Below are positions 7,174 through 25,427 of a DNA stretch of 25,427 nucleotides, piece after piece. Positions within the stretch are counted from its first letter, which is position 1, and each line of letters starts with the position of its first letter. A model generated the notes under the pieces. It had not been told where the DNA came from. It worked only from the letters and a program-made list of their open reading frames with translations, and did not search any database. The translations under genes were made by a program, and so were the position numbers. The stretch spans positions 1-25,427 of the IMG/VR virus record IMGVR_UViG_3300034152_000499; one strand, written 5' to 3'. Source of the DNA: a virus.

Positions 7174-7186
7174 TTTTTATATCTCC

Positions 7187-8095
7187 TTAGACTAACCTGA
7201 AAACTTTTTTGACGATGGAAGATTTTGGAAAAAGTTCTGCATAAACGGATGATACTTCTGTTAAATCAAACATTTCCTGATATTGTAATGAATTTGAGGG
7301 CGCTCTTTTTCCAAACGCCCCGTTGTATGCATAATGTAATGATGCGAAAACTTCTCTGTTTTTGGAAAAAGATTGATACAGTGGTTGAGCATTTCCAGTA
7401 ATATTTGCAATTAATCCAAATTTACAAGATACTATGTAACCGAGAACATGTTTCTTAAATTTTTCTTCATCCAATGGAGTCTTTTTACCAAATTTTTCTT
7501 CTAATAGTTTTGCATAATCCGTTAAAATTTTATTTACCTGTCTGTTTGAATTGAATTCTTTCCTCATAAATTTAACTATTTCAGCAGTATCTCTTGTGAT
7601 TTCTCTTTGTTTAACACCAAACAATAAATGAAAAACTTCAGAGTAATATTTTACAAAATAGGGATTAAATGCTTTATAGAAACCAGATGGTTTCAAATGG
7701 GCAACCAAATGCATACATTCGTGAACAACCGTTTCAGCAACTTCTTCATTCTTTGCAGTTCCCCACGATGTCATGCTGTTGTCCATAAAAATATATACTT
7801 TTTTGTGTGGTCTGTAATACATTGCAAATGCATCGTTCATCTGAACATTAATTTTAAAAACTTTTCTTTTCACCCAAGAAAAGATTCCTTTAGTTAGAAA
7901 ACATGGAATTATTATTTCATTTTGAATCATTTTCTCTAACTGTGGATAATAATTAGATGATGCTCCAGCCTTTTCCAGTGTTTTTAAAGTGGCTTTTATC
8001 AGAGAATCGGAAGTATAAAATGCAACACCATCAATAACAGTAACTTGTCGAGTGTTTGTTGGAAGTGCAAATAACTCATTAATATCTTTTTTCAT
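7187..8095 (-). CDS. HExxH zinc metallopeptidase-like protein
   Basis: A 302-aa protein with a gluzincin/zincin-type motif VHECMH (His125, Glu126, His129) inside a hydrophobic helix (VAETVVHECMHLVAH). This is the usual zinc-binding and catalytic arrangement of metallopeptidases. It is preceded by a beta strand (VYIFMDNSM), as in many minimal zincins. The third zinc ligand is not obvious; candidates are Glu or His residues in the helical C-terminal half. There is no signal peptide. The gene lies between the terminase and the tape-measure-like gene, 13 bp from the latter, so a role in virion protein maturation is attractive but only inferred. It lacks the JAB/MPN signature and is therefore not an obvious Ubl deconjugase. 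Start: ATG after a GGGAG Shine-Dalgarno sequence. Confidence 0.6.
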   Translation of the reverse strand: MKKDINELFALPTNTRQVTVIDGVAFYTSDSLIKATLKTLEKAGASSNYYPQLEKMIQNEIIIPCFLTKGIFSWVKRKVFKINVQMNDAFAMYYRPHKKVYIFMDNSMTSWGTAKNEEVAETVVHECMHLVAHLKPSGFYKAFNPYFVKYYSEVFHLLFGVKQREITRDTAEIVKFMRKEFNSNRQVNKILTDYAKLLEEKFGKKTPLDEEKFKKHVLGYIVSCKFGLIANITGNAQPLYQSFSKNREVFASLHYAYNGAFGKRAPSNSLQYQEMFDLTEVSSVYAELFPKSSIVKKVFRLV

Positions 8096-8097
8096 TT

Positions 8098-9759
8098 TTA
8101 CTCCCTATTATATAAATCCAAAATATTTACAAACCCACCTTGATTTGTATCGATGACTTCTTTTCTGACATGGTTCAAAATTTGAGAATCTTCCATTTGA
8201 TTCAAACCTTCTCCCAAATTCATTCCGATAACGTTTCTGAATATTTCATTCACTTCACCAAATCTTGCAGTGTCAATCATTGTTGGTGGGTCATATTTAC
8301 GAACATAAAACGCACATGCAGTTGCAAGGGAAAGATCATCGTGACACCCCGTATCAGCTTCAATTTTGCCATTTTTCTTTGATACTAACCCTGTGAGTTC
8401 AAGTGCCAATCGCTGCGATTTAACGCTCTCTGGATACTGTTGTATGTAAGAATATAAAGCGTCAATCATAAGAGGTCTTGTCTTAGGTGTATTAGTCAGT
8501 CCTGGTTTTAAAGTATGCACACCTATTTGTTCCTTATAAAGCATAAATGAGAATTCACTCACACCCAATTGTTCTAAAACTTGGTTTCCATAAGAGTTTG
8601 CTTCAACTACAATTGTTCCTGGGTATGTTCGTGCAGCGATAAGAACAATCTTGACAAAATCTAGTACTTTACACTTTCCTTGATATTCCCAAACCTGTTC
8701 TAGTGTTTGATAATTCCAAACCGTAACTGCTGATTTATCCTCACCATATTCCGGTGCAGTATCGACACCTATTATATAGTATTGTCCTGGAATTGGATCA
8801 ACGAATTTCCAAGCTTCACCATTAAATAATCTCAATTTCTCTATTGGTTCTATACAAGCATTTTGAACCTTTTCCATTGTCTCTGGATCAAAGAATGCAC
8901 CTTCTGCTGGTAAGAATTTTAACTCTAATTCTTGAGCAATTTTTCTTGGGTCATTGTCAAATAACTGACATTGAGTTTTGTACCAATCTGGATCGTTCGC
9001 AAGTTCTGGTATCATCTTCCAGTGTATTATAAACGGTTTAAAGATAGAATCTTTTGTTATTGCTCTAGAATAATTTTCAAAATACCACTGGCCGTCACCA
9101 ACCGTTTTGTTTGGTGTTGAAAGAATAACAGTTCCGTATGGTACGTTGGCTTTTTTTGCCTGCATCTGATTCGTTGACAATGCAGGAACCATTGATGTCC
9201 ACGCATTGTCGATATGACCAATAAATGCTGCCTCATCGATTACCAAAAAAGTGATAGCTTTACCACGAAGAGTTTTTGTTGGTGCATTTGGATTAACTGG
9301 TGATGCGTAGACTTTGGCACCATTTGTTAAAATAAAAGATTGTTCTGTTCTTTTGGCAAATCCTCTACCTTGACTTCCTTTTGGTGGTTTCATCCAATCA
9401 GGAAGTTTTTCAACCATACCACGAGTTGCTCTGGCAAAGTCTGTGGCTTCTTTAAAATCTTTTGATATAATTCCAATAACAACATTGTTGTAAAAGTTGG
9501 CAAGCCATGCAGAATACGCTTGAATTATAGTTGATATACCAATCTGTCTACTTTTCAGAACTAGAATGTATTTATCCATTTCAATATTACGAATTAGTTC
9601 TGATTGTTTTCGATACGGTATAAGATTGGCATCTTTTCCGGGAAGTTCTATTAGAATATATTTGCGACAGAAATAATCAAAATCTGCTTTACATTTCAGA
9701 TACTCGGTAACGTACCTGTCTGCAAGTGATTGTTTAGATTCTTTCTTTTTTCTACCCAT
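8098..9759 (-). CDS. terL: Terminase large subunit (DNA packaging ATPase/nuclease)
   Basis: A 553-aa motor protein that translocates DNA into proheads and cuts the concatemer. The N-terminal ATPase domain shows a variant Walker A, KSRQIGIST (residues 69-77). Walker B with catalytic Glu is in FLVIDEAAF (Asp175-Glu176), and a coupling motif VILSTPN lies near 211-217. The C-terminal RNase H-like nuclease shows the three acidic sites expected for the family: Asp333 in IIGVDTAPEYGEDKS, Glu386 in VVEANSYGNQV, and the Asp pair in GCHDDLSLA (474-475). Both halves look intact and the length is in the T4 gp17-like range. The N-terminus is very basic (MGRKKKESK). The gene sits 2 bp upstream of the metallopeptidase gene. 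Start: ATG with AAAGGA upstream. No small terminase subunit was recognised in the window. Confidence 0.93.
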   Translation of the reverse strand: MGRKKKESKQSLADRYVTEYLKCKADFDYFCRKYILIELPGKDANLIPYRKQSELIRNIEMDKYILVLKSRQIGISTIIQAYSAWLANFYNNVVIGIISKDFKEATDFARATRGMVEKLPDWMKPPKGSQGRGFAKRTEQSFILTNGAKVYASPVNPNAPTKTLRGKAITFLVIDEAAFIGHIDNAWTSMVPALSTNQMQAKKANVPYGTVILSTPNKTVGDGQWYFENYSRAITKDSIFKPFIIHWKMIPELANDPDWYKTQCQLFDNDPRKIAQELELKFLPAEGAFFDPETMEKVQNACIEPIEKLRLFNGEAWKFVDPIPGQYYIIGVDTAPEYGEDKSAVTVWNYQTLEQVWEYQGKCKVLDFVKIVLIAARTYPGTIVVEANSYGNQVLEQLGVSEFSFMLYKEQIGVHTLKPGLTNTPKTRPLMIDALYSYIQQYPESVKSQRLALELTGLVSKKNGKIEADTGCHDDLSLATACAFYVRKYDPPTMIDTARFGEVNEIFRNVIGMNLGEGLNQMEDSQILNHVRKEVIDTNQGGFVNILDLYNRE

Positions 9760-14257: not shown

Positions 14258-14642
14258 TTTCAAAAAACTCCTTTTCTGTATTTTGATTTTGCCATTTCTG
14301 GCTGTCTTTCTCTGGATTTTCACGCCATTTTTCTACGTCGATTTCTGTGTATGTTTCCAAAATTGCTATTCCCAATGCGGTCAGTTTTATAGCATTTTCA
14401 TACAATTCAACTGGACCTCCATTTTCATGTTCAGATTCATAACAACTCAATAACCATTCTGGAAACTTTTCTTTTTTTGACCACGGGCCTTGATACGACA
14501 ATTCCATATCATTTAGATATCGTTGAATCATGACTAGAAAACTGGCTGGATTTAAGCATTTGACGTTTTTGTATTCACCAAATACTTTTTTTTCATAAGC
14601 ATTTTCTTTTAGCACTAATCTAATTACATCTTCAAGTTTCAT
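14250..14642 (-). CDS. Small helical protein, possibly MazG-like
   Basis: A 130-aa protein starting at the ATG at 14642 (MKLEDVIRL). This ATG has AAGGAG eight bases upstream and overlaps the FolE2 stop as ATGA; the longer frame from 14684 is less likely. It appears all-alpha, with a middle acidic segment (CYESEHENGG) followed by a hydrophobic helix (YENAIKLTALGIAILETY). This layout recalls small phage MazG-like or dNTP-pyrophosphohydrolase-related proteins, which share helices with acidic metal ligands, but the typical EExxE motif is not evident. It is coupled to FolE2 upstream and overlaps the acidic-protein gene by 8 bp, so a nucleotide-metabolism role is plausible only by context. Confidence 0.6.
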   Translation of the reverse strand: MKLEDVIRLVLKENAYEKKVFGEYKNVKCLNPASFLVMIQRYLNDMELSYQGPWSKKEKFPEWLLSCYESEHENGGPVELYENAIKLTALGIAILETYTEIDVEKWRENPEKDSQKWQNQNTEKEFFENE

Positions 14643-15514
14643 ATAAATCTCCTTCCGTCTAATCCTTCTGGAACTCCCTTCCAATTTACTGCAATTGCTT
14701 CAGAAGTGTGAATTGACTCTTCATGAATGCATTTAACAATCCAATCGTAAATTGGTAAATCATCAATCGCTTTGGTTATTAATCGAATAGCATCTTCGAC
14801 AAATAGAGGATTTTCAGCAGCAATTTTTGCAATCTCTCTTTCGTCCACACGCTTAATTATTGGATATGGAAGGGTTGGTATAACAGATTCAATCGCTTCA
14901 ATAACGTCCTCCAACCAAACATATTGTCCTTTATCCACAATGGATTCGACTAACACATCTGCATATGATCTTTGGTTATGGGGATACCCTCTTTCAGAAC
15001 AAGAATCTAAATGATTACAAAGTTCTGCTGAACATGGGCAATATGAAGCATATTGAATTTTAACACCCTGATAAAAGGTATAGTGATATCTGGTTAAATC
15101 GATACGGTCTTGAATCAATCTTCCTTCAAATCGACATGGGTAATATATAGGAAAACTATATTTACTTACTGGAGATTTCCTTTCCATCGGAAGTCGAAAT
15201 TCAAATTTCATGAAAGCATTTTTACTTCCAACGTTTTTTGCAATATCCATTAATATAGTTTTTACCAGAGTTTGTTTTAGAGGTTGGTATAGATACTTGC
15301 GCAAAGTTCTCAACAATCTAGACATTGAAATACCTTTTGCACGACTATCTAAATTTGTTGTCATAGAAACGTTTGCAACCAGATCATAAAATTCAATTCC
15401 ATCAATTTTGTATTTACTTTCGAGTCGGAATGGAACTTCCACGTTCTCTACACCAACCTGTTTTATTGATATCGGAATATCAGGTTTTGTTTCTTGAATA
15501 TCTGGCAAATTCAT
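14639..15514 (-). CDS. folE2: GTP cyclohydrolase IB, FolE2 family
   Basis: A 291-aa enzyme of the FolE2/MptA family, which converts GTP to 7,8-dihydroneopterin triphosphate, the first step shared by folate and 7-deazaguanine (preQ0/queuosine) synthesis. Family hallmarks are in order. The N-terminal IQETKPDIPISIKQVGVENV matches the usual opening. A KGISMSR motif lies at 60-66 and a KSPVS motif at 113-117. The metal and catalytic region is SYCPCSAEL (Cys159/Cys161), then PHNQRSYADV (His179). NPLFVEDAIR, with Glu240, and ESIHTSEAIAVN complete the site. Length is typical and all key regions are present. A short Cys-containing insertion (NHLDSCSERGY) separates the Cys and His motifs. In phages such enzymes often feed 7-deazaguanine DNA modification; no partner gene is in view here. 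Start: ATG after AGAAGGAG. Confidence 0.92.
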   Translation of the reverse strand: MNLPDIQETKPDIPISIKQVGVENVEVPFRLESKYKIDGIEFYDLVANVSMTTNLDSRAKGISMSRLLRTLRKYLYQPLKQTLVKTILMDIAKNVGSKNAFMKFEFRLPMERKSPVSKYSFPIYYPCRFEGRLIQDRIDLTRYHYTFYQGVKIQYASYCPCSAELCNHLDSCSERGYPHNQRSYADVLVESIVDKGQYVWLEDVIEAIESVIPTLPYPIIKRVDEREIAKIAAENPLFVEDAIRLITKAIDDLPIYDWIVKCIHEESIHTSEAIAVNWKGVPEGLDGRRFI

Positions 15515-16070: not shown

Positions 16071-16366
16071 ACGATTTCCTTTGGGTCAAATAAAACTTCC
16101 ACAACCTTTTTTTGTTGTGGAACATCAAACCAATCTCTGTGATAGTAGTATCCATCTTCCTCACAATAATGAGTGTATTTACTTCCCAATACTGAATTTG
16201 GGATAAAACTATATAATTGACCATCGCCAAATTTCTTTGACATTGTACTGTTTATATGTAAGTTGTCTTTAATGTATATAGAATCTGATCCAGGTCTTAA
16301 TTTAAACCCCATTTTCTTCATTTCTGAAATAGATTTTAATGCGACTCTAATTGTTTCAACAATCAT
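16067..16366 (-). CDS. Small protein, first copy of a tandem paralog pair
   Basis: A 99-aa protein of unknown function and a paralog of the following gene. The matching blocks are KKFGDGQLYSF, YTHYCEEDGYYYHRDWF and VLFDPKEIV. Its ATG overlaps the stop codon of the RNA polymerase beta-like gene (ATGA), so it is probably translated from the same message as the polymerase. Position suggests a link with the polymerase or with early takeover, but nothing in the sequence shows this directly. Confidence 0.6.
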   Translation of the reverse strand: MIVETIRVALKSISEMKKMGFKLRPGSDSIYIKDNLHINSTMSKKFGDGQLYSFIPNSVLGSKYTHYCEEDGYYYHRDWFDVPQQKKVVEVLFDPKEIV

Positions 16367-19300
16367 TTGTAATCAACCCCCAAAATGGTTAAATATGAGT
16401 TCAGCAGTTTCACTGATTCTGGTGTTGCATCAAGATTCTTATCTCCATCAATTGGATTAAATGAAATCAAATCTGATATATATTTATTTTTTAAATCTAT
16501 ACAGTCAGACTTTGTCGTTAAAAATTCATGTAGATTGATTGGAGCATCGTGCCCAATAATACATGCAGTTTCCATTTCACCACATCGTTGACCGCCTTTA
16601 TTTTTTCTTCCCCCAAGTGGTTGTAAAGTTCTCTTTGCGTAACTACCAATACCACGAGCAGCCAATTTTGCTTCAGCAATATGAACCATTCTGAAGAAAT
16701 ACTGGTAACCAACTGCAATTGGGTTTTCAAGTTCTCTTTTAGCAATGGGATCATATACCCTTTGTTTGAATTGAGTTCCGCTTAAGCTCATAGCTTCTTC
16801 CAAATCTTCAAAACGAACTGATTCAAAAGGTGGTTGTATAAATGCAATACTGTCTATGAATTCTTCATCAATAATATCAGGTAGTTGACTTTCAAATTGT
16901 TCTGATAGCCATCCATCTTTGGTTTTGTCAATTGTCTTAACATATTCCATCAGATATTCTTTAACTTCATCTTGTGTATGACTTGTTTTCAACATATCTT
17001 TCAGAACATTTTTCAAATCCATAACTGACATTGATAGATGTAGTTCATACAATTGACCAATGTTCATTCGTGAAATAATACCCAATGGATTGATACAAAT
17101 ATCAAGATGGCGTCCGTCTGGTAGTTGCGGCATCTTTTCTTGATACTCAATGCGAGAAATGACACCCTTGTTACCATGTCTATTTCCAAGTTTATCTCCC
17201 ACACGTATATTTCTGAAATGTATACCGAACATTTCAACTTTGATACCATCTATTTTTTCTTTTTTGACTTTATATTTACCAACGTGTGAAAACATATCCA
17301 AACCATTTTCTTTTATAAACTTATCAGCATCAGATTTATCCAATTTTGATCGTATTATTTTATTAATATAATTTTCTTTATCACGTTGTTGGGTAATTCT
17401 TTCCTCAATCCACTGTTTATATTCTGGAATTTCTGTGTTCCATTCGTTTGCATAAAGATTAATTTCGGATATGATGAATCTTTTTTCTGCTTCAAATTTT
17501 TTCTCTTCCTGAAATACAGAGTAAAAATCATCAGTGTTTAGATTTTTTAAGATTGCATACGGTTCGCCAATTTCAACAATTTCAAGTCTATCTGGCAAAG
17601 GCTTGTATTTTTCTTCTGACAAACTCAACAAAACTTTATGTGGTGGTATATGAAATGACAAATCACGGTAATGAATTGAGGTCAGAACATTCTCTTTTAC
17701 AAGTCGGTCTGAAATAACAATACCATCCTCGTAATTATTACCGTAGTGAACCATAACACCTGTCAGCAAATTTTTACCAAATGTTATGTTACCATCTTGA
17801 CAATAATTGCTTTCAGCTAAAATTTCACCTTTTGTTATTTTATCACCTTCTTTTACATAAATTTTGAAGAATTCCATGTTTTCAACATATATTTTTCTAT
17901 ATGATATGTCAAAAATATCAATAGTTCCATCTTCATAATGAACAATTATATATTTTTCATCTGCATGAATAACCACACCATCTTGTTTTGCAACTTTTGT
18001 TGATTGTGTGTATTTTGTATATAATCCCTCACAGCCAGATGATATAATCGGTCTTTCAAATTTCTTTAGCATAATTGACTGTCTCATCTGTGATGATGAC
18101 ATCTGCAATCTTGTTTGGTCATCGTGTTCGCAGAATGGAACCATCGATACAGGAATCGAAATGGGTGCATGATCAAGAGTGTTTCTTGTAAATTTCAAAT
18201 GATCATCCAAATCAACGTTGGGTAATAGATTTTGCAGAACACCACAATTGTCACGGTCTGGTGTGTCAACCGGACATATTCTTCCATACATTGTGGGGCA
18301 TATATCACGCAAATGTCGTGGTATATTTTCTCTTTTAAATCCACCCGGACCCAAAAGACTGATTCTTGAAAGTTTCGTTAATTGTTCGATTGGATTAATT
18401 GAAAAGTCAAATTGAACAATGTCTGAAACGTTACAAGCTGTTATGATTTGATTTGAATTGATATTGAATTTAGGTTCTCTTTTATCTCTATTTGAAAAAC
18501 ATAAATCAAAAACATTTTTTGCGACAACACCATATAAAATATATTCAAAACATCTTACTCTTTTGTTTAGAAAAGATGTGTCATCAATAAATCCAACTTT
18601 GAATGTTTCAACTAATTCATCCAAGAGATTGTTTTGATTTAAAAATTGTCTTGTCATAATATCGACTTGTGGAATTAATTCAAGAGCATATAATACATCT
18701 TCACCTTTTGATTTTGCAGTATATTTTGAATAGATGCGTCCGATCTCAAGAATGAAATCGTCTTGGCTCCACCCTCTTGATTCCTCCATCATTTCGTATA
18801 GATCATGCAGTAATAATTCATATAATGTTGCTGATGGATGATCGATTTTTTGTCGTGGTGCTGTCAAGTTAAATTTCTGAATTGTTTGATTAACACCAAA
18901 ATATGCAAAAATCATAGATGCCATCGGGACTTTTTTGCCCAAGAAACTCATCTTGACAAATGGAAATTCCCGATCCTTCAATGCCATTATAGTTGCGACA
19001 TTTGTTCTTAGTTTAACAGATTCTCCCCTTGTTACCACTGGAATGTCAAATAATTGAAATAATGGAATTTTCTTTCTTCCGTTGATGAAAATGTAATTGT
19101 CATCGATGAGTTTTGGTATAAACATACTCAGATCAACAACGGAGGTTCCTTTTTTCAACCTTATAACAAGGGTTTGTTTTAGCGTTCTAGCAATTTCTCC
19201 AGATATAAATCTTGAATCTTTCAAACCCAACTCTTCGATTTGAAATCCAATATTATGAACTGGTTGTAATATTTGTGAGACTACTCCCAAAATATCGGAG

Positions 19301-19371
19301 TAGTCTCTCTTACGAATGGTAAAAATATTGTCTTCGTTTTGTATTGCAAAGTGAGGATTTATTAGATTCAA
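16363..19371 (-). CDS. DNA-directed RNA polymerase beta-subunit homolog (phage RpoB-like)
   Basis: A 1002-aa single-chain beta subunit, about three quarters the length of E. coli RpoB. Conserved blocks appear in order. The fork/rifampicin-pocket region is at 316-344 (VQFDFSINP...RISLLGPGG). CPTMYGRICPVDTPDRDNCG is at 358-377. FCEHDDQTR is at 413-421, where bacterial RpoB has FLEHDDANR. Active-site contacts are NYEDGIVIS at 546-554 (Glu548-Asp549) and GDKLGNRHGNKGV at 725-737 (Lys727 and Lys735). NPLGIISRMNIGQ is at 761-773, and the C-terminal clamp piece LQPLGGRKNKGGQRCGEME is at 917-933. Thus the catalytic core looks complete; the missing length is mostly lineage-specific insertions and lobes. 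It lies downstream of the beta' gene with a 4-nt ATGA overlap, the reverse of bacterial rpoB-rpoC order. Several rifampicin-site residues differ (see findings). Confidence 0.95.
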   Translation of the reverse strand: MNLINPHFAIQNEDNIFTIRKRDYSDILGVVSQILQPVHNIGFQIEELGLKDSRFISGEIARTLKQTLVIRLKKGTSVVDLSMFIPKLIDDNYIFINGRKKIPLFQLFDIPVVTRGESVKLRTNVATIMALKDREFPFVKMSFLGKKVPMASMIFAYFGVNQTIQKFNLTAPRQKIDHPSATLYELLLHDLYEMMEESRGWSQDDFILEIGRIYSKYTAKSKGEDVLYALELIPQVDIMTRQFLNQNNLLDELVETFKVGFIDDTSFLNKRVRCFEYILYGVVAKNVFDLCFSNRDKREPKFNINSNQIITACNVSDIVQFDFSINPIEQLTKLSRISLLGPGGFKRENIPRHLRDICPTMYGRICPVDTPDRDNCGVLQNLLPNVDLDDHLKFTRNTLDHAPISIPVSMVPFCEHDDQTRLQMSSSQMRQSIMLKKFERPIISSGCEGLYTKYTQSTKVAKQDGVVIHADEKYIIVHYEDGTIDIFDISYRKIYVENMEFFKIYVKEGDKITKGEILAESNYCQDGNITFGKNLLTGVMVHYGNNYEDGIVISDRLVKENVLTSIHYRDLSFHIPPHKVLLSLSEEKYKPLPDRLEIVEIGEPYAILKNLNTDDFYSVFQEEKKFEAEKRFIISEINLYANEWNTEIPEYKQWIEERITQQRDKENYINKIIRSKLDKSDADKFIKENGLDMFSHVGKYKVKKEKIDGIKVEMFGIHFRNIRVGDKLGNRHGNKGVISRIEYQEKMPQLPDGRHLDICINPLGIISRMNIGQLYELHLSMSVMDLKNVLKDMLKTSHTQDEVKEYLMEYVKTIDKTKDGWLSEQFESQLPDIIDEEFIDSIAFIQPPFESVRFEDLEEAMSLSGTQFKQRVYDPIAKRELENPIAVGYQYFFRMVHIAEAKLAARGIGSYAKRTLQPLGGRKNKGGQRCGEMETACIIGHDAPINLHEFLTTKSDCIDLKNKYISDLISFNPIDGDKNLDATPESVKLLNSYLTILGVDYK

Positions 19372-22082
19372 TTGATTTTTTCTCCTTTTAATATTTTATC
19401 AAGAACACCGGAATACCTTCCTTCATACATTATTCCTTGTAATATGCTTCTCTTTGGGTTTGAAAATGCCATAGCCAATACCCAACTTTCCTGATTTGGA
19501 ACAGCTTGAATTGAATAGAACTTTGGTTCGACTTCATCTCTGTTGTCTAACAATCTCCATTTGCGATAATTGTGCCACATCAACTGTGAAACAACACATT
19601 CATAATGAACATGGTAGATGTCTTTGTCATAAACATCAAACAAAGAATCCACCAGTTTAACTGGATCGTTGTGATCAAATCGATGAAGCATACTTGAAAC
19701 GGTTGCAAGATCACCAATGATGTCCTGTTGTTTCATATCTGAGTCATCTTGATTTGATTCTCCTTTGATGATGGCCGAACCTGAAGTGTGAAATGTTCTC
19801 AAAACAAGCTGAGTTGATCTCTCACCCAAAGTCTGTGCTGCAAGTATTCCAATGAATCTGCTATTTAAAACATTTTTCAATTCACCATAACACTTATGGC
19901 ATATATTTTTTGATTTACAATATATTGGACTTCTTACATATATTGTTTTTCCTATATTCTCCTTATAATTTTCTCTGGTGATCAAACGAAGTGTTCCGCC
20001 CTTCATCCTCTGCCATCTGTTAATCAGCATGAGAGACTTTCTTTCGTTTTTGACATCTACAGCTAAACAATCCGTTGTGCCACAATTCTCCAAATCATTA
20101 TCAATTTGAAGATTTGCGCATGTGAATATTAGTTTTCGTGACAGATAACCAGAGGTTCCAGTATTCAATGCAACGTCCAAAAGACCCTTACGACTTCCAT
20201 ACGTCGAATAGAAAAATTCTTCTGGAGTCAAACCATCAATCAGATTGTGTTTGATTGGCAATGGCAAAATTTCACCATCAAAGTTTGAGATGTATGCACG
20301 ACTGAATATCAATTGTTTCACTTGATCCCAACTACCCCTCGCTCCAGAGTCGATCATAAAAGCATATTTGAATGTTTTTCTCATTTTCTCAACTATGGAA
20401 TCATCATTTAATGCAATCAACTGATCACGAATTCCACCTTGGTTGTAGATTTCATTTCTCTCATCTTCAGCATTTGGGTAATAGCAATCATCAAGTGACA
20501 TCGTTGAACCGAATAGCGTTGAATATTTAAATCCGATTCTCTTTATTTCATCTAATGTTGCTGCTACTATCTCTTTTGGGTAATTGTCTTTGATTGCATT
20601 CAATATTTTCATAAGACCTTTTTTCTTTACTGGAATTGATATTACAGGAAAATTGTCGGGCAAAGCATCGTTAAAAATCTTTTGCCCTTCAGTGATTTCT
20701 TTTCCTTTATATTCCACTATACTTTCTAAGTCTTTGAATTTATCGGATGTTAATGCATATATACCCAAGATAACATCTTGGCTAGGTGTCGTAGTCAGAC
20801 TCTCATTTGCCGGACTGCTCAGATTGTTTGTAACAAATATCTTTTCAATCACTTCCTGTTTGGCTTCCTTAGATACTGGTATGTAAACCGCCATTTGATC
20901 ACCATCAAAGTCAGCGTTGAATGGTGGACACACCAGTGGGTGTATCTTGATAGAATTACCCATACTGAGTTTTATGTTAAAACCCAACATACCCAATTTA
21001 TGTAGAGATGGTTGACGATTAAGTATACAAACTTCTCCCTGAATGACATTTCTACAAACATGTTCCAATACAGGTGATCTAATTTCCATACATTTTTCAA
21101 CAAAGTCGATGGCTTTGTTGAGAAGTTTGAACTTTCCAATTTCAATCAATTTCTTTGCAATCGGAAGTTTGAATATTTCCAAAACCATAAAATATGGCAA
21201 TGCACATTGATCCAGTTTTAAAGTTGGATCAGGTGTGATAACGGCTCGACCAGAAAAGTCAATTCTTTTTCCGAGAATGTTTCCACGAATCAATCCTTCC
21301 TTCTTTGCCATTTTCTGCAATATTCGTTCGTATAACTCGTTTACATCTTTTTGAAGTTGTTTAAAATACGTGTAATACAGTTCCTTGTCATGGTGAATGT
21401 TGATGGTAGTTTGTTGCATAACCTCTTTTTTGTTCAGAACTTGAACATAATAACGGTTTATTTTATCCATCAACTGTTTGTTTTTACTACCTTTGGTTGG
21501 AGATGATGGTCTCAAATCTGGAGGGAGTACAATGATTTTATTGATCATTAAATTGTCAATCTTATCAAGAACCATTTTCCATTCATCTTGACCATCATCT
21601 ATACCATTTTTCGCAAACACTTCTACCCATTTTTTGATGGCTTCGGCTTTTTCCCATTTATGATCATAACTTTTAATTAGTTCAGGTTGAACAGTAACAT
21701 AATAGTCTTCACCATCTTGGACTAGGACACTTTTTTCACTTTTCATCAAATCATACAATCCAGATTTCAAAGGTTTACCACCTAGATCGCATACCAGATC
21801 ATAAAAAATAGGATTCACAACTTCAATCGGTAATATGATTTTTGCAAATCTTTTTCTACGAACATCGCTGTTTTCGATATCTACCTTGCATAGGTTACAG
21901 GTAGAACCTTTCTTCGACACACCCCAATATGTACCGCATTGGCATGTGTAGTTTTTCACTGGACCGAAAATCTGTTCAGAGAATAAACCATTCGGATGAA
22001 AATATTTTTTATTCATAATTTTCAAAGATGATACCTCTGGAAGATTTTCGCAAAAAGAATCGTAGTCCAATATTTTTGGCAT
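19368..22082 (-). CDS. DNA-directed RNA polymerase beta'-subunit homolog (phage RpoC-like)
   Basis: A 904-aa single-chain beta' subunit containing the catalytic centre. The N-terminal zinc site is CQCG...CNLC (Cys47, 49, 62, 65). The lid/rudder area includes IRGNILGKRIDFSGRAVITP (265-284). Next are RQPSLHKLGMLGF (356-368) and the invariant catalytic loop NADFDGDQM (389-397), with Asp391, 393 and 395 holding magnesium. The bridge helix is FFYSTYGSRKGLLDVALNTG (623-642) with GYLSRKL after it. A second zinc site uses Cys667, 722, 728 and 731. The trigger-loop start is GERSTQLVLRTFHTSG (753-768), with the Arg and His seen in cellular enzymes. The C-terminus ends soon after the conserved SWVLAMAF block. 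All parts needed for catalysis are present. Start: ATG after AAAGGAG. No alpha, omega or sigma gene was recognised nearby. Confidence 0.95.
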   Translation of the reverse strand: MPKILDYDSFCENLPEVSSLKIMNKKYFHPNGLFSEQIFGPVKNYTCQCGTYWGVSKKGSTCNLCKVDIENSDVRRKRFAKIILPIEVVNPIFYDLVCDLGGKPLKSGLYDLMKSEKSVLVQDGEDYYVTVQPELIKSYDHKWEKAEAIKKWVEVFAKNGIDDGQDEWKMVLDKIDNLMINKIIVLPPDLRPSSPTKGSKNKQLMDKINRYYVQVLNKKEVMQQTTINIHHDKELYYTYFKQLQKDVNELYERILQKMAKKEGLIRGNILGKRIDFSGRAVITPDPTLKLDQCALPYFMVLEIFKLPIAKKLIEIGKFKLLNKAIDFVEKCMEIRSPVLEHVCRNVIQGEVCILNRQPSLHKLGMLGFNIKLSMGNSIKIHPLVCPPFNADFDGDQMAVYIPVSKEAKQEVIEKIFVTNNLSSPANESLTTTPSQDVILGIYALTSDKFKDLESIVEYKGKEITEGQKIFNDALPDNFPVISIPVKKKGLMKILNAIKDNYPKEIVAATLDEIKRIGFKYSTLFGSTMSLDDCYYPNAEDERNEIYNQGGIRDQLIALNDDSIVEKMRKTFKYAFMIDSGARGSWDQVKQLIFSRAYISNFDGEILPLPIKHNLIDGLTPEEFFYSTYGSRKGLLDVALNTGTSGYLSRKLIFTCANLQIDNDLENCGTTDCLAVDVKNERKSLMLINRWQRMKGGTLRLITRENYKENIGKTIYVRSPIYCKSKNICHKCYGELKNVLNSRFIGILAAQTLGERSTQLVLRTFHTSGSAIIKGESNQDDSDMKQQDIIGDLATVSSMLHRFDHNDPVKLVDSLFDVYDKDIYHVHYECVVSQLMWHNYRKWRLLDNRDEVEPKFYSIQAVPNQESWVLAMAFSNPKRSILQGIMYEGRYSGVLDKILKGEKIN

Positions 22083-22087
22083 GGGCT

Positions 22088-22306
22088 TTACTCCTTTATT
22101 TTTTCTTTTACTGCATCAAGTAAGAGATGTATGTGTCCTCTTACCCTTTTCGCAATGATTTCATCGATTTTAGGCATTATTAAATTGATTATTGTTTCAA
22201 TGTCATCTTGTGATAAACGAATCATTTTAGCTTCTATTGATTCTTCAACTATTTCTTCAACAATGGGTTGAAAAACTTCTTTAAATGATTTTTCTTGTTC
22301 ACTCAT
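22088..22306 (-). CDS. Small helical protein between the Ubl module and RNA polymerase genes
   Basis: A 72-aa acidic, all-helical protein with a Glu-rich N-terminal half (VEEIVEESIEAKM) and an amphipathic C-terminal half. There is no recognised family. Its ATG overlaps the stop of the E2-like gene by 4 bases, and its stop is 5 bases from the beta' gene start, so it links the two modules in one transcript. It was considered as an omega-like polymerase subunit because of size and place, but the omega-type motif pattern is not visible. Confidence 0.55.
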   Translation of the reverse strand: MSEQEKSFKEVFQPIVEEIVEESIEAKMIRLSQDDIETIINLIMPKIDEIIAKRVRGHIHLLLDAVKEKIKE

Positions 22307-22731
22307 ACTTTTACACTCTCATATTGATTTTTTCCTGGAACGAAGAAACAACTCAAAAGATTCCAGACTCTCAAGACAATTCTGATGTCATGTATCAAAT
22401 TTTCACTTACGGGTTTTGCTTTCATATAATCTGGCATACAAAAAACTCCAGTTTCATAATCAACATTCGGATGTACACCACCAAATGTCTGAATTGATTG
22501 CAGTTTTTCTATTCCATCTTTGTCAATAAAAGTTCGAGTTATAAACCCCTTTAGATGATACATTTCATCTGATTTTATAATTCTCTCTTCTGCTTCATTT
22601 CTTATTCCGACAGGTTCCATCGGATCATAGTATATTGTCAAAATTCCTTCTGTTGTTCCGGGTGGTGTAATTGTTTTGTTAGGCGGAATTTGTTTCTTTA
22701 ATGAGAACAATTTTTGTCTCTTTCCCTTCAC
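22303..22731 (-). CDS. E2-like (ubiquitin-conjugating-type) protein
   Basis: About 142 aa from a GTG at 22731; a TTG at 22710 behind AAAGAG is an alternative start giving 135 aa. The core FGGVHPNVDYETGVFCMPDY (residues 83-102) looks like the active-site region of ubiquitin-conjugating enzymes. There an HPN tripeptide (87-89 here) precedes the catalytic Cys (Cys98 here) by about 10 residues; the spacing here is one residue longer. Before it are two or three strand-like segments (ILTIYYDP, GFITRTFID, KLQSIQTF), matching the E2 beta meander. After it is a helix (IHDIRIVLRVWNLLSCFF), matching the E2 helix that follows the Cys. The gene overlaps the end of the E1-like gene by up to 53 nt and couples to the 72-aa gene. 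E2 function is inferred from motif and context; distant Prok-E2 families are the likely relatives. Confidence 0.65.
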   Translation of the reverse strand: MKGKRQKLFSLKKQIPPNKTITPPGTTEGILTIYYDPMEPVGIRNEAEERIIKSDEMYHLKGFITRTFIDKDGIEKLQSIQTFGGVHPNVDYETGVFCMPDYMKAKPVSENLIHDIRIVLRVWNLLSCFFVPGKNQYESVKV

Positions 22732-23587
22732 GAATTAGTTGAACAAAGAATATACAATCCCCACTCATTCTTGACACGATGTTTGACAATTTTTGCATTA
22801 CATCATATTCTCCAGTTATCGATCCTCTCTGAATAATATCATAGAATTTAGATGGTGATCCATGTAAACCACTGAATGTTTTCCAATCATTTTCTTCACC
22901 AATGAAAACTGGTAAATCAGATTTTTGGTTTGCAACCATTATCGGTTTGGTGTTGATATCAACTCTTCTGAGTCGCTCATAACCTTTTGGTGCTTCATAG
23001 ATCATATCATCAATATTATCAGTCATTTCAAGAGTATCGCTTATAGGTTGACAAAAATCCTGTGTTATTTTATCCAATCGGAACATTGAAGATGACTGTT
23101 GTTTTATCAAATCAAATATATGTCTAGAAACAAATATTTTCTTGATATAATATGCAGCATCATCAATTGTGTTTCTACTGAGTTCAAGTATATACTTGCC
23201 CAGAACAGGTTTGTCATATTTCACATACCTCTCGCAATCAATTACAAGAGTTCTTTCGGAGATGAATAGTCTTACATCAATTTTTCCATATCTTGAACAG
23301 CCAACATCACGACAATCAATCAGAAGGTCTGTCTTGGGTATCTCTGTCTTTAGTTCGTCGTAACTAGAGGGTATGGTGATTGAATCGCACCCCAAATATT
23401 TTGTCAAAGATTCAACTTTGGATTTTCCAACATCGTTTTTACGATATATTGAATTTCTCAAGTTGTTTTCTTCAACAATGTCAGGGTCTATTATAATAAG
23501 TTTTTCAATTCCATCTATGTTTGATAAGTGGTGGGCAACAAAACTACCCAAACTTCCAACTCCAATAACGCCAATTGTTTTTACCAT
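22679..23587 (-). CDS. E1/ThiF-like adenylating enzyme, copy 1
   Basis: About 302 aa from the ATG at 23587, chosen because GAGGTG lies four bases upstream; a GTG at 23593 is also in frame. The N-terminal Rossmann domain has GVGSLG (residues 9-14). The acidic strand is IIIDPDIVEENNLR (Asp34, Asp36, Arg44) and DVGKSKVESL follows (Lys55, Lys57). These match the ATP-binding and adenylation residues of the ThiF/MoeB/E1 family. The DN motif that normally follows is replaced by LLIDCRDVGCSRYG, in which Asp91 is kept and nearby Cys residues could be thioester candidates. The C-terminal 170 residues are not typical and may form a partner-binding domain. Such enzymes adenylate the C-terminal Gly of a ubiquitin-like protein. 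The gene follows the Ubl gene and overlaps the E2-like gene. Confidence 0.8.
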   Translation of the reverse strand: MVKTIGVIGVGSLGSFVAHHLSNIDGIEKLIIIDPDIVEENNLRNSIYRKNDVGKSKVESLTKYLGCDSITIPSSYDELKTEIPKTDLLIDCRDVGCSRYGKIDVRLFISERTLVIDCERYVKYDKPVLGKYILELSRNTIDDAAYYIKKIFVSRHIFDLIKQQSSSMFRLDKITQDFCQPISDTLEMTDNIDDMIYEAPKGYERLRRVDINTKPIMVANQKSDLPVFIGEENDWKTFSGLHGSPSKFYDIIQRGSITGEYDVMQKLSNIVSRMSGDCIFFVQLIREGKETKIVLIKETNSA

Positions 23588-23600
23588 TATCACCTCTAGG

Positions 23601-23627
23601 TTGGGGAGTCAAGAGATGACTCCCCAA
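23601..23627 (-). terminator. Hairpin between the Ubl gene and the E1-like gene
   Basis: A perfect 10-bp inverted repeat, TTGGGGAGTC/GACTCCCCAA, with a 7-base loop. It begins 18 bases after the Ubl stop and ends shortly before the Shine-Dalgarno sequence of the E1-like gene. There is no U-run after it on the minus strand, so full termination is doubtful. It may protect the 3' end of an abundant Ubl message or reduce read-through into the enzyme genes, giving more Ubl than E1/E2. Confidence 0.6.
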
Positions 23628-23645
23628 TTTTTAATGACTACTTTA

Positions 23646-24137
23646 TTAGCAGCCTTTCTTTCCGGCTGGTTTCAGAAATTCGACGTTATCATCGATCTGA
23701 ATTGCGTAATCATCTTCGACGTTTTTGCCGTTGACGATACCTTTTGACATCGGATCAACATTCAGAACCTCTGCCAACAGATCACGAACTTCTCCAACTG
23801 TGCGACCAGCAACGGAGAAGTCACCGGCTGCGGCACCGCTGGAAACACGGATTGTTGTGGTATTTCTGTTACCGAATTGTTTTTCCGGTTTGTCGATGAC
23901 GCTGGTGAATGTCCCGGCCAATTGATCTTCAATTTCCGGTGTGTCCATTTCACCTTCAGGGCCAGCGGCTGCGATTGCGGCCGGACTGTTGGCTCCGTAG
24001 GATTCCATGATGGCGTCGATGACAAAGTCTTTTCGTTTTTTGGTCAAACCAGGCAAATCCAGTTCGTAGACACACATACGTTTCAGTTCTTTGTCGGTTT
24101 TTGCTTCCAGTTCTTCACGAGTAAAGTAGTAAGGCAT
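23646..24137 (-). CDS. SAP-like domain fused to ubiquitin-like beta-grasp protein
   Basis: A 163-aa protein with two parts. Residues 5-46 (FTREELEAKTDKELKRMC...LTKKRKDFVIDAI) look like a SAP/HeH-type helix-extended-loop-helix domain, often nucleic-acid or protein binding. Residues 47-92 are an Ala/Gly/Glu/Pro-rich linker. Residues 93-163 look like a ThiS/MoaD/ubiquitin-type beta-grasp: TTTIRVSS and DFSVAG strands, helix VGEVRDLLAEVLN, GIVNGKNVEDDYAI, and NVEFLKPAG. The C-terminus is AGKKGC: a penultimate Gly rather than a free Gly-Gly, so trimming of the last Cys may be needed before activation, or the Cys itself may have a function. The gene is flanked by two E1-like genes. It is much richer in G+C than its neighbours (38 of 60 bases at 23941-24000 by my count). 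Start: ATG after AAAGGA. Confidence 0.72.
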   Translation of the reverse strand: MPYYFTREELEAKTDKELKRMCVYELDLPGLTKKRKDFVIDAIMESYGANSPAAIAAAGPEGEMDTPEIEDQLAGTFTSVIDKPEKQFGNRNTTTIRVSSGAAAGDFSVAGRTVGEVRDLLAEVLNVDPMSKGIVNGKNVEDDYAIQIDDNVEFLKPAGKKGC

Positions 24138-24198
24138 TTTTCAGAATTCCTTTCGAGATTTGTTTTGTTACTTTTTTTGGTTAAAGGTTACGGCTAAA

Positions 24199-24876
24199 TT
24201 AGCCAACTCGACGCTTTGTATCTGCAACCATGAGTTTGAAATCTACATATGTCTCGTCACCAGCAATACGATCTGAACTGATGAGATTGTAGAAAGCGCA
24301 ACACATGAATACTGCAATACCAGCGTTCACGAAAAAGAGTTGTGGTTCTGATTCAGACAACTCTTCACAAGACATTTCTTCGGGTGTTTGATCTTCAGGA
24401 TTGGCGATTTCTGGATGAAATCTGCATAAGTCTGGAGTTAGTTCACTACCCTCCTTCTTGACATATATTTGAACATTTCCATCAAGAAGCTCGTTACCAC
24501 CAGAGATCAAAACAACACTACTCAATGTTCTGCAATACTCTGATACAATTTTCCTTGTCTTGTGGTTATCCACGCATAGAAACACTATGTCATTATTTTG
24601 TATTACTTCGGAAACTGTATCATTGTTGATGTAAATCGGAATGGATGTGCAATCTATTCCTTTAAATCGAATAGAAAGTTCTTTAGCTTTTGATTCAGCT
24701 TTATTTTCTCCTACCCTTTTGAACTCTTGTCTTTCTTTATTCTTTTCCTCGTAGGAGTCGCCATCGATTAGGGTCATTGAGAAACTGTTATAACCCTGCG
24801 AGTAATAGAGATATCGGGTCAGCAGGTTGACCAAAACTGACCCGATTCCACCGAGACCTATGATTTTAATTTGCAC
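24199..24876 (-). CDS. E1/ThiF-like adenylating enzyme, copy 2 (PRTRC-ThiF-like)
   Basis: About 225 aa if it begins at the GTG at 24876 (MQIKIIGLGG), which places the first strand at the N-terminus; a TTG at 24897 would add seven residues. Numbered from the TTG, the Rossmann loop GLGGIGS is at 14-20. The acidic strand and Arg motif are in LIDGDSYEEKNKERQEF (Asp45, Asp47, Asn53, Arg56, Gln57). GENKAESKAK carries Lys66, and FLCVDNHKTRK has the DN pair (Asp110-Asn111) of active E1/MoeB/ThiF enzymes. A Cys in EEMSCEEL (177) is a possible catalytic Cys, followed by SEPQLFFVNAGIAVFM, a segment I associate with PRTRC-type and phage ThiF proteins. All adenylation residues look intact. It lies 61 bp before the Ubl gene and overlaps the upstream acidic gene. 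Confidence 0.8.
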   Translation of the reverse strand: MQIKIIGLGGIGSVLVNLLTRYLYYSQGYNSFSMTLIDGDSYEEKNKERQEFKRVGENKAESKAKELSIRFKGIDCTSIPIYINNDTVSEVIQNNDIVFLCVDNHKTRKIVSEYCRTLSSVVLISGGNELLDGNVQIYVKKEGSELTPDLCRFHPEIANPEDQTPEEMSCEELSESEPQLFFVNAGIAVFMCCAFYNLISSDRIAGDETYVDFKLMVADTKRRVG

Positions 24877-25427
24877 GTTTATTTCTTGCGTTTGCAACCC
24901 TCTCTTTCAACCATTCGGTTAGTGAAAATTGAGGAACTTCGTCTGGTGTTGGAATTTCTTTTCCATCATATGGTTCGTCATCAAATTCATGGCTCTTACC
25001 ATGTAGAAAGTCATCACTATTGTATTGATCTTCAACCATATCATGGATGTCTGGATCATACATCATTGATCCATCATCACGATCAAGAATGTCTGCGTCT
25101 TCTGTTGACACGATCATTACATCGTCATCTGGATCAATAAAATCATCATCTATAGTATCAAGGTATGTATCGGCATCAGCCATCAAATAATCATCATCTT
25201 CAATTATAAGATCATTGTCATCATCATCTTCTTCCCAATCAAAATAATTCAATGCCCATTCCAGTTTGTGTTTCAGAAAAACACACTTCTCGCATGGATT
25301 TGAATTTTTGTCAATTGCATTGTTTCCATCAAAATTCACTGGAGTTATATTTCGTGATGGGCCAACATTTAGTGGTGAAGTTGGTTTGCCTGCTGGTGGA
25401 ATCCCCCAAGCGGACCAATCATCATCA
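24866..25427 (-). CDS. Acidic protein of unknown function (5' partial)
   Basis: The frame is open to the right edge of the window. A GTG exists at 25339 but lacks a Shine-Dalgarno sequence and the frame continues upstream (...WSAWGIPPAGKPTSPLN), so the start is probably outside. The visible 186 residues include a Pro/Gly-rich N-terminal piece, a PCEKC (CxxC) motif, a short helix, then a very acidic Asp/Glu-rich stretch of roughly 100 residues. The C-terminus is a basic helix (SLTEWLKERVANARNKR). No family is recognised. Its 3' end overlaps the E1-like gene, so it belongs to the same operon and could be a substrate, adaptor or regulator of the Ubl module; this is inference from position. Confidence 0.6.
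   Translation of the reverse strand, partial: DDDWSAWGIPPAGKPTSPLNVGPSRNITPVNFDGNNAIDKNSNPCEKCVFLKHKLEWALNYFDWEEDDDDNDLIIEDDDYLMADADTYLDTIDDDFIDPDDDVMIVSTEDADILDRDDGSMMYDPDIHDMVEDQYNSDDFLHGKSHEFDDEPYDGKEIPTPDEVPQFSLTEWLKERVANARNKRAN

Follow-up and report, generated by a model that had tools for sequence, protein, structure and literature searches.

A probable ubiquitin-like conjugation and deconjugation pathway encoded beside the RNA polymerase genes of one large-phage lineage

Introduction

The stretch of DNA analyzed here, hereafter the window, is the complete IMG/VR record IMGVR_UViG_3300034152_000499 of 25,427 bases, a fragment of a virus. Its minus strand holds four adjacent genes at 22303-24897, and these raise the question of whether a phage encodes a ubiquitin-like (Ubl) protein conjugation pathway of its own. 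In such pathways, members of the E1, E2, and JAB families carry out adenylation, thioester relay, conjugation to lysine, and removal by JAMM enzymes. The original prediction read the four genes as parts of a Ubl pathway seemingly built for conjugation, and we found the corresponding open reading frames (ORFs) in place; an E2-like fold in a 142-amino acid (aa) protein and a beta-grasp in the C-terminus of a 163-aa protein, named beforehand as the features that could overturn this reading, were both upheld. A JAB isopeptidase and a first E2-like protein had been overlooked because the contig ends there. Our results suggest that a PRTRC/type 6d core (E2a, JAB, E1a, and Ubl) and a co-translated E1b-E2b pair make up a phage-encoded Ubl conjugation and deconjugation pathway, which probably belongs to the core functions of a single large-phage lineage.

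Results

All genes of the set lie on the minus strand. The JAB/JAMM isopeptidase is present as its C-terminal tail (24866-25426; JAB tail profile E-value 4.1e-6, PCxxC motif), a 186-aa ORF that is cut by the contig end and lacks its catalytic part. It is followed by E1a, a ThiF/E1-like adenylating enzyme of 232 aa (24199-24897; Pfam ThiF 1.7e-20), by the 163-aa Ubl protein (23646-24137), by E1b, a 304-aa protein with a divergent ThiF-type nucleotide-binding domain and a C-terminal domain (22679-23593), and by E2b, a minimal E2 (UBC)-like protein of 142 aa (22303-22731). The same genes are found, at 31-52% identity, on the viral contigs L002 and L003, which restore the parts removed by the contig end, namely JAB and, preceding it, the E2-like protein E2a. 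The full order is radical S-adenosylmethionine (SAM) protein, small genes, E2a, JAB, E1a, Ubl, (small gene), E1b, E2b, small gene, rpoC, and rpoB, with median spacings in the relatives of -8 bp for E2a/JAB, -4 bp for JAB/E1a, and -4 bp for E1b/E2b.

Conservation and ASCERTAINMENT were addressed with a scan by the E1b alignment, which gave 54 loci, nearly all with the full set. Because these loci had been found through E1b, a second scan was started from rpoC; among the 53 loci that had 9 kb or more of upstream sequence and an rpoC identity of 48-69%, all six genes lie directly upstream of rpoC in 50, which makes the set core rather than accessory in one lineage. The exceptions are L144, with E1b-E2b only (8397-9655, motifs kept), L149, with E2a-JAB-E1a-Ubl only (7030-9248), and L146, with none; these absences apply to contigs, possibly fragments, and not to whole genomes. 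Since L144 and L149 hold opposite halves, the cassette is two separable modules. The same gene order recurs at more than 50 loci with 25-60% protein identity, and this conservation and synteny exclude chance; removing near-duplicate loci at 90% identity reduces the 50-52 proteins of each kind to 43-46. Some contigs of the lineage exceed 200 kb (the largest is 312 kb), its terminase is of T4 type, and the nearest isolates are about 30% identical. Six more distant rpoC loci, including L170, are without the set; L157 has one E1b-like gene. The L170 locus (277-kb contig, rpoC copy 2) shows that related phages have an additional multi-subunit RNA polymerase, diverged from the first and lacking the cassette.

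A cellular origin was also considered and rejected: when 84,980 species were scanned with E1b, one contig was returned, L090, which carries the complete cassette and was read as virus DNA. This contig (DAOVGR010000079.1, 34.7 kb) is filed in a metagenome-assembled genome of a Thermoplasmatales archaeon, either as misbinned phage DNA or as a hint of the host.

The distribution bears on the idea that the set serves counter-defense or host takeover, with the phage Ubl placed on host proteins or JAB stripping host Ubl tags such as those of Bil or of the type II cyclic oligonucleotide-based antiphage signaling system (CBASS). Bacterial Ubl systems do act against phages (Nature 2023, PMC10097602; Hor 2024, cited in PMC12660748), and JAMM proteases of Borgs have been proposed to counter host tagging (PMC12660748). 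However, a near-invariant and complete set beside rpoC is unlike patchy anti-defense cargo, a full tagging arm is present rather than a protease alone, and the PADLOC matches to CBASS E1-E2 models involved no more than a generic E1 domain. The earlier suggestion that the phage counters Ubl-based host defense is therefore not supported, and we regard it as quite unlikely.

The core of the pathway resembles the PRTRC/type 6d systems (Iyer, Burroughs, and Aravind 2006, PMC1779556; TIGR03735-TIGR03738), and we compared profiles by hhalign with PRTRC profiles derived from four plasmids. E1a aligned with PRTRC ThiF at 2.4e-29; its best NCBIfam match is TIGR03736 PRTRC_ThiF (1.7e-16), under the curated cut-off (60.3 versus 144.75 bits). 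Its ATP site (G14xGGxG, D45GD47, N53xxRQ, K66, and D110N111) is near-invariant among orthologs, and cysteine C177 is kept in 43 of 43. With a ThiF fold, an ATP motif, and a catalytic-type cysteine, E1a is a predicted member of the E1 superfamily. In complete relatives, JAB matches TIGR03735 PRTRC_A (5.6e-13; 48.9 bits against a cut-off of 101.8) and Prok-JAB (7.5e-6), and aligned with PRTRC_A at 8e-16; the glutamate, both histidines, the serine, and the aspartate of its JAMM motif, E...HxH(x7)SxxD, are kept in 45 of 45 relatives, the window holding the tail alone. E2a is a protein of about 820-830 aa that is similar in its N-terminal domain to the E2 of PRTRC-B (hhalign 3e-5, cysteine aligned on cysteine), with N175 and C183 (L065 numbering) kept in 43 of 43. 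The PRTRC likeness that had been noticed earlier was right and can now be stated exactly: E2a, JAB, and E1a are homologous to PRTRC B, A, and ThiF and stand in the same order, E2a and the catalytic part of JAB having been compared in the relatives.

The other PRTRC pairings gave nothing convincing by hhalign, none of the six proteins matched PRTRC-E or PRTRC-F significantly, and ParB, PRTRC-E, and PRTRC-F were not recognized among the neighbors in L002 and L003. Searches of the PDB with the JAB and E2a profiles gave no match. Type 6d E2s are described as having a cysteine and a conserved downstream histidine that replaces the HPN histidine (PMC1779556), whereas in E2a the cysteine is followed by F-N-x-D-Y at the downstream site. 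On sequence comparison, the core represents a phage branch that has diverged within PRTRC/6d, a type known from plasmids and bacteria; it differs in that its E2 is the N-terminal part of a protein of about 830 aa, that its Ubl is fused to a Rho_N domain, that an extra E1b-E2b pair is present, and that it lies in a phage beside RNA polymerase genes.

The Ubl protein has an N-terminal Rho_N/SAP-like domain (about aa 9-46) and a C-terminal beta-grasp (about aa 93-158). The TGS, ThiS, and Ub-Mut7C families are all beta-grasp families. While the window protein alone gave weak matches (ThiS 0.022, Rho_N 0.049), the 43 orthologs matched Rho_N in 37 cases (best 3.8e-13), TGS in 31, ThiS in 26, and Ub-Mut7C in 14; these beta-grasp matches, individually weak, support the beta-grasp proposed for the C-terminus of this protein. 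Its C-terminus reads A158-G-K-K-G162-C163, with K161 and G162 kept in 44 of 45 orthologs and the tail conserved as A-G-x-K-G, so that the protein would qualify, from its sequence, as a beta-grasp modifier with a C-terminal glycine. About 40 of 67 Ubls stop at the final glycine of AG(K/R)KG and the rest add 1-5 residues, mostly cysteine, which fits trimming by JAB. The match to PRTRC_C, likewise a small beta-grasp Ubl ending in GxKG (...GTKG), was weak (hhalign E-value about 0.05), with the C-termini in register, AG(K/R)KG against (A/V)GTKG. In some relatives, among them L020 (2352-2714) and L021 (2236-2676), another protein of Rho_N type that has no beta-grasp is encoded directly upstream of E2a.

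An alternative is sulfur transfer, in which a ThiS/MoaD/Urm1-like Ubl would be thiocarboxylated by E1a for the thiolation of tRNA, cofactors, or bases and the E2-like proteins would be scaffolds. Such a role would agree with the ThiS-family matches of the Ubl, the ThiF homology, and the usual upstream neighbor, a radical SAM protein with a CxxxCxxC motif (L002, 143-1198; 50 of 59 rpoC-anchored loci), and JAB and ThiS do occur together in sulfur operons (Iyer 2006, PMC1779556). Nevertheless, the set encodes two E2-like proteins with invariant cysteines and a JAB of the PRTRC_A type, no rhodanese domain was found on the E1s, and no cysteine desulfurase or thiouridylase was recognized in the stretches examined. 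We consider a sulfur carrier very unlikely, in keeping with the original argument that an E2-like protein favors protein conjugation over sulfur transfer.

E1b matches Pfam ThiF at 1.5e-11, confined to residues 6-68; its first 110 residues are ThiF-like and similarity ends near residue 110. The N-terminus aligned with PRTRC ThiF at 1.9e-12 (hhalign), and the profile reached MoeB (7.6e-11), MccB, and Cap2 (2.1e-9) in the PDB. The residues G11xG, D36xD38, N44, K59, D93, and D96 are kept in 45-46 of 46 orthologs, but neither the ortholog alignment nor the profile comparison gave a counterpart of E1a C177. Because the thioester cysteine is absent, E1b is not a second complete E1: the two proteins originally called E1-like enzymes are both ThiF-like, although "two E1 enzymes" would be too strong. 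The median overlap of 4 bp between E1b and E2b makes co-translation and joint action of the two probable. In this pair, E1b would probably be the adaptor or regulatory partner.

The C-terminal 90 residues of E1b end in a near-invariant LIPETGAA, which in the window protein reads ETNSA, and a beta-beta-alpha-beta-beta-like pattern precedes this conserved tail (window 22679-22980). By eye the domain suggests a fused beta-grasp, and it might be a fused second modifier; we do not claim a fused beta-grasp because the profile comparison was not significant (hhalign 0.44, and eS17 at 0.18 as the only sequence reached in the PDB).

E2b contains H87-P88-N89 and a catalytic-type C98 in the window protein, which had no match in Pfam. 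Its GTG start lies inside E1b with no clear ribosome site, and the exact start is uncertain. The histidine, asparagine, and cysteine are invariant in the first set of 46 sequences; in the larger set of 68, the histidine and cysteine are kept in all and HxN..C in 62, the six divergent members having HPH, HAN, or HPL. A PDB search with the E2b profile at an E-value of up to 5 returned only two sequences, both ubiquitin-conjugating enzymes aligned on HPN..C (0.35 and 0.41). The AlphaFold2 model of the window protein from 11 sequences had a pLDDT of 55 and meaningless Foldseek matches, and it was set aside for an alignment of 45 orthologs led by L050, whose model reached a pLDDT of 95.2 and a pTM of 0.85. 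The top Foldseek match of this model was an E2 in both the PDB (0.31) and BFVD (0.19), neither being significant. VIA-align, which is a second look at Foldseek's own matches and whose Z below 8 is weak by itself, found E2s in 50 of 50 among the matches listed (Z 4.2-4.9, root mean square deviation 2.9-4.7 over 70-92 residues). Residues 1-108 of the model align with E2 residues of about 29-136, and helix 1 and the C-terminal helices are absent.

One could instead take E2b for a small metal-binding or structural protein with an HPN...C that mimics E2s, leaving E2a as the sole working E2, as the low Foldseek significance, the missing helices, and the six divergent members would allow. We find this rather improbable given that the matches listed by VIA-align are all E2s, that the histidine and cysteine are kept throughout, and that the profile search of the PDB reached two sequences, both E2s. 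The exclusive E2 match list and the motif together make the E2 assignment convincing, and the model predicts for the E2b family a UBC fold with a beta-meander, an HPN-type loop, a catalytic cysteine, and a following helix. The E2-like fold proposed for the 142-aa protein is thus borne out on the ortholog model.

The components and arrangement of the cassette were further compared with other known systems. In Bil (BilABCD), separate Ubl, E2, JAB, and E1 genes form one operon. The present set differs by description in being phage-carried, in having two E1-like and two E2-like proteins, and in its one beta-grasp with Rho_N. CBASS type II Cap2/Cap3 and the 6a-6c E2-E1(-JAB) fusions share E1 domain homology, as the Cap2 match of E1b shows, whereas here there is no E2-E1 fusion, no CD-NTase was recognized, and a Ubl gene is present; membership in CBASS was rejected since the PADLOC matches concern a generic E1 domain only. 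The TAPI-TAPK tail assembly clusters of phages lambda and T1 likewise encode a Ubl and a JAB; their description includes no E1 or E2 (PMC1779556), and the JAB and its location differ here. In addition, we found the same PRTRC-like core, E2-JAB-E1(-Ubl), in other large phages, namely L009-L011, phage Arash, Bacillus phage KLEB27-3, and Vibrio phage D69, in none of which E1b or E2b was detected. In L009 (3574-9720; also in L010 and L011), an E2-like protein, JAB, and E1 are followed by an 83-aa Ubl without Rho_N, ending in RRAGEKG. Directly after it comes an AAA+ ATPase of 534 aa, which may serve this Ubl system as a dedicated unfoldase. Salmonella phage Arash (L005, 1519-4539; gp248c-gp246c) is a cultivated phage with E2-JAB-E1, of which E2 and E1 are annotated "structural protein".

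This annotation, together with the terminase, baseplate, and virion structural genes of the window, would suit a virion maturation tag, in which Ubl and JAB take part in particle assembly, as suggested for lambda TAPI/TAPK, and structural proteins are conjugated. The Arash annotation was not traced to experiment, however, and the Rho_N domain and the RNA polymerase linkage point to transcription, which leaves this explanation unlikely.

On the other side of the set, the constant neighbors are the genes of RNA polymerase beta' (rpoC, 19368-22082) and beta (rpoB, 16363-19371), both on the minus strand and recognized by Pfam/NCBIfam domains. A 72-aa small protein ORF lies between E2b and rpoC (22088-22306, minus strand), and small ORFs resembling it precede rpoC in L002, L003, L038, and L054. 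Besides baseplate, virion structural, and T4-type terminase genes, the window encodes a FolE2-type GTP cyclohydrolase downstream of rpoB (14639-15514; Pfam GCHY-1, 1.6e-60), which perhaps serves 7-deazaguanine modification of DNA or RNA.

Discussion

The activity and order of transfer that we infer for the conjugation pathway are as follows. JAB would trim the Ubl tail after ...AG(K/R)KG wherever residues follow, and E1a would adenylate the C-terminal glycine and then hold the Ubl as a thioester on C177. E2a, E2b, or both would take the Ubl on their cysteines and hand it to target lysines, and JAB could reverse the target bond. Through its Rho_N/SAP-like N-terminus, the Ubl is probably guided to the transcription machinery or to nucleic acid. 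Because of the fixed linkage to rpoC-rpoB, the likeliest targets would be the phage's own transcription or virion proteins.

Several points weigh against this interpretation. A position next to rpoC-rpoB is no proof of a shared function, L144 has E1b-E2b but, at least within its contig of 92 kb, none of the other four genes, and the lineage is known from uncultivated virus contigs, with no isolate. The link between E2a and PRTRC_B is moderate, and the single-sequence match of E2a to Prok-E2_D is weak (E-value 0.003, 17.7 bits against a cut-off of 25). The Ubl terminates in GxKG rather than GG. The E2b fold comes from an ortholog with 26% identity to the window protein, which has an N-terminal insertion and was modelled poorly, and its structural Z is below 5, with Foldseek E-values of 0.2-0.3.

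A broader proposal is that the whole jumbo-type phage lineage runs a core reversible Ubl cascade that has two arms each of E1-like and E2-like type, a Rho_N-Ubl tether to nucleic acid, and a physical link to RNA polymerase, and that E1b, in the E1b-E2b arm, may even include another modifier as a fused domain (tail ETGAA). We put this forward tentatively, as possible but doubtful.

In the literature that we covered, which is thin for subscription papers and preprints, we found no description of a phage cassette like this one, nor of the E1b-E2b pair, the Rho_N-Ubl fusion, or the RNA polymerase linkage. A comparative survey from 2021, which covered 224 jumbo phages (PMC7824862), makes no mention of JAB, ThiF, or Ubl, and tblastn of E2b in phage records returned none.

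Most of the Ubl conjugation systems known from bacteria either act against phages or have no assigned role. If true, a near-invariant cascade in phages would reverse this picture, since here a virus would itself depend on ubiquitin-like tags. Its constant position next to RNA polymerase suggests targets that can be tested directly, namely the RNA polymerase subunits and virion proteins, and a minimal E2 of about 110 aa without helix 1, together with an E1 partner that has no catalytic cysteine, bears on the evolution of E1-E2 pairs. These findings hint that a ubiquitin-like chemistry of their own is among the core functions of some phages.

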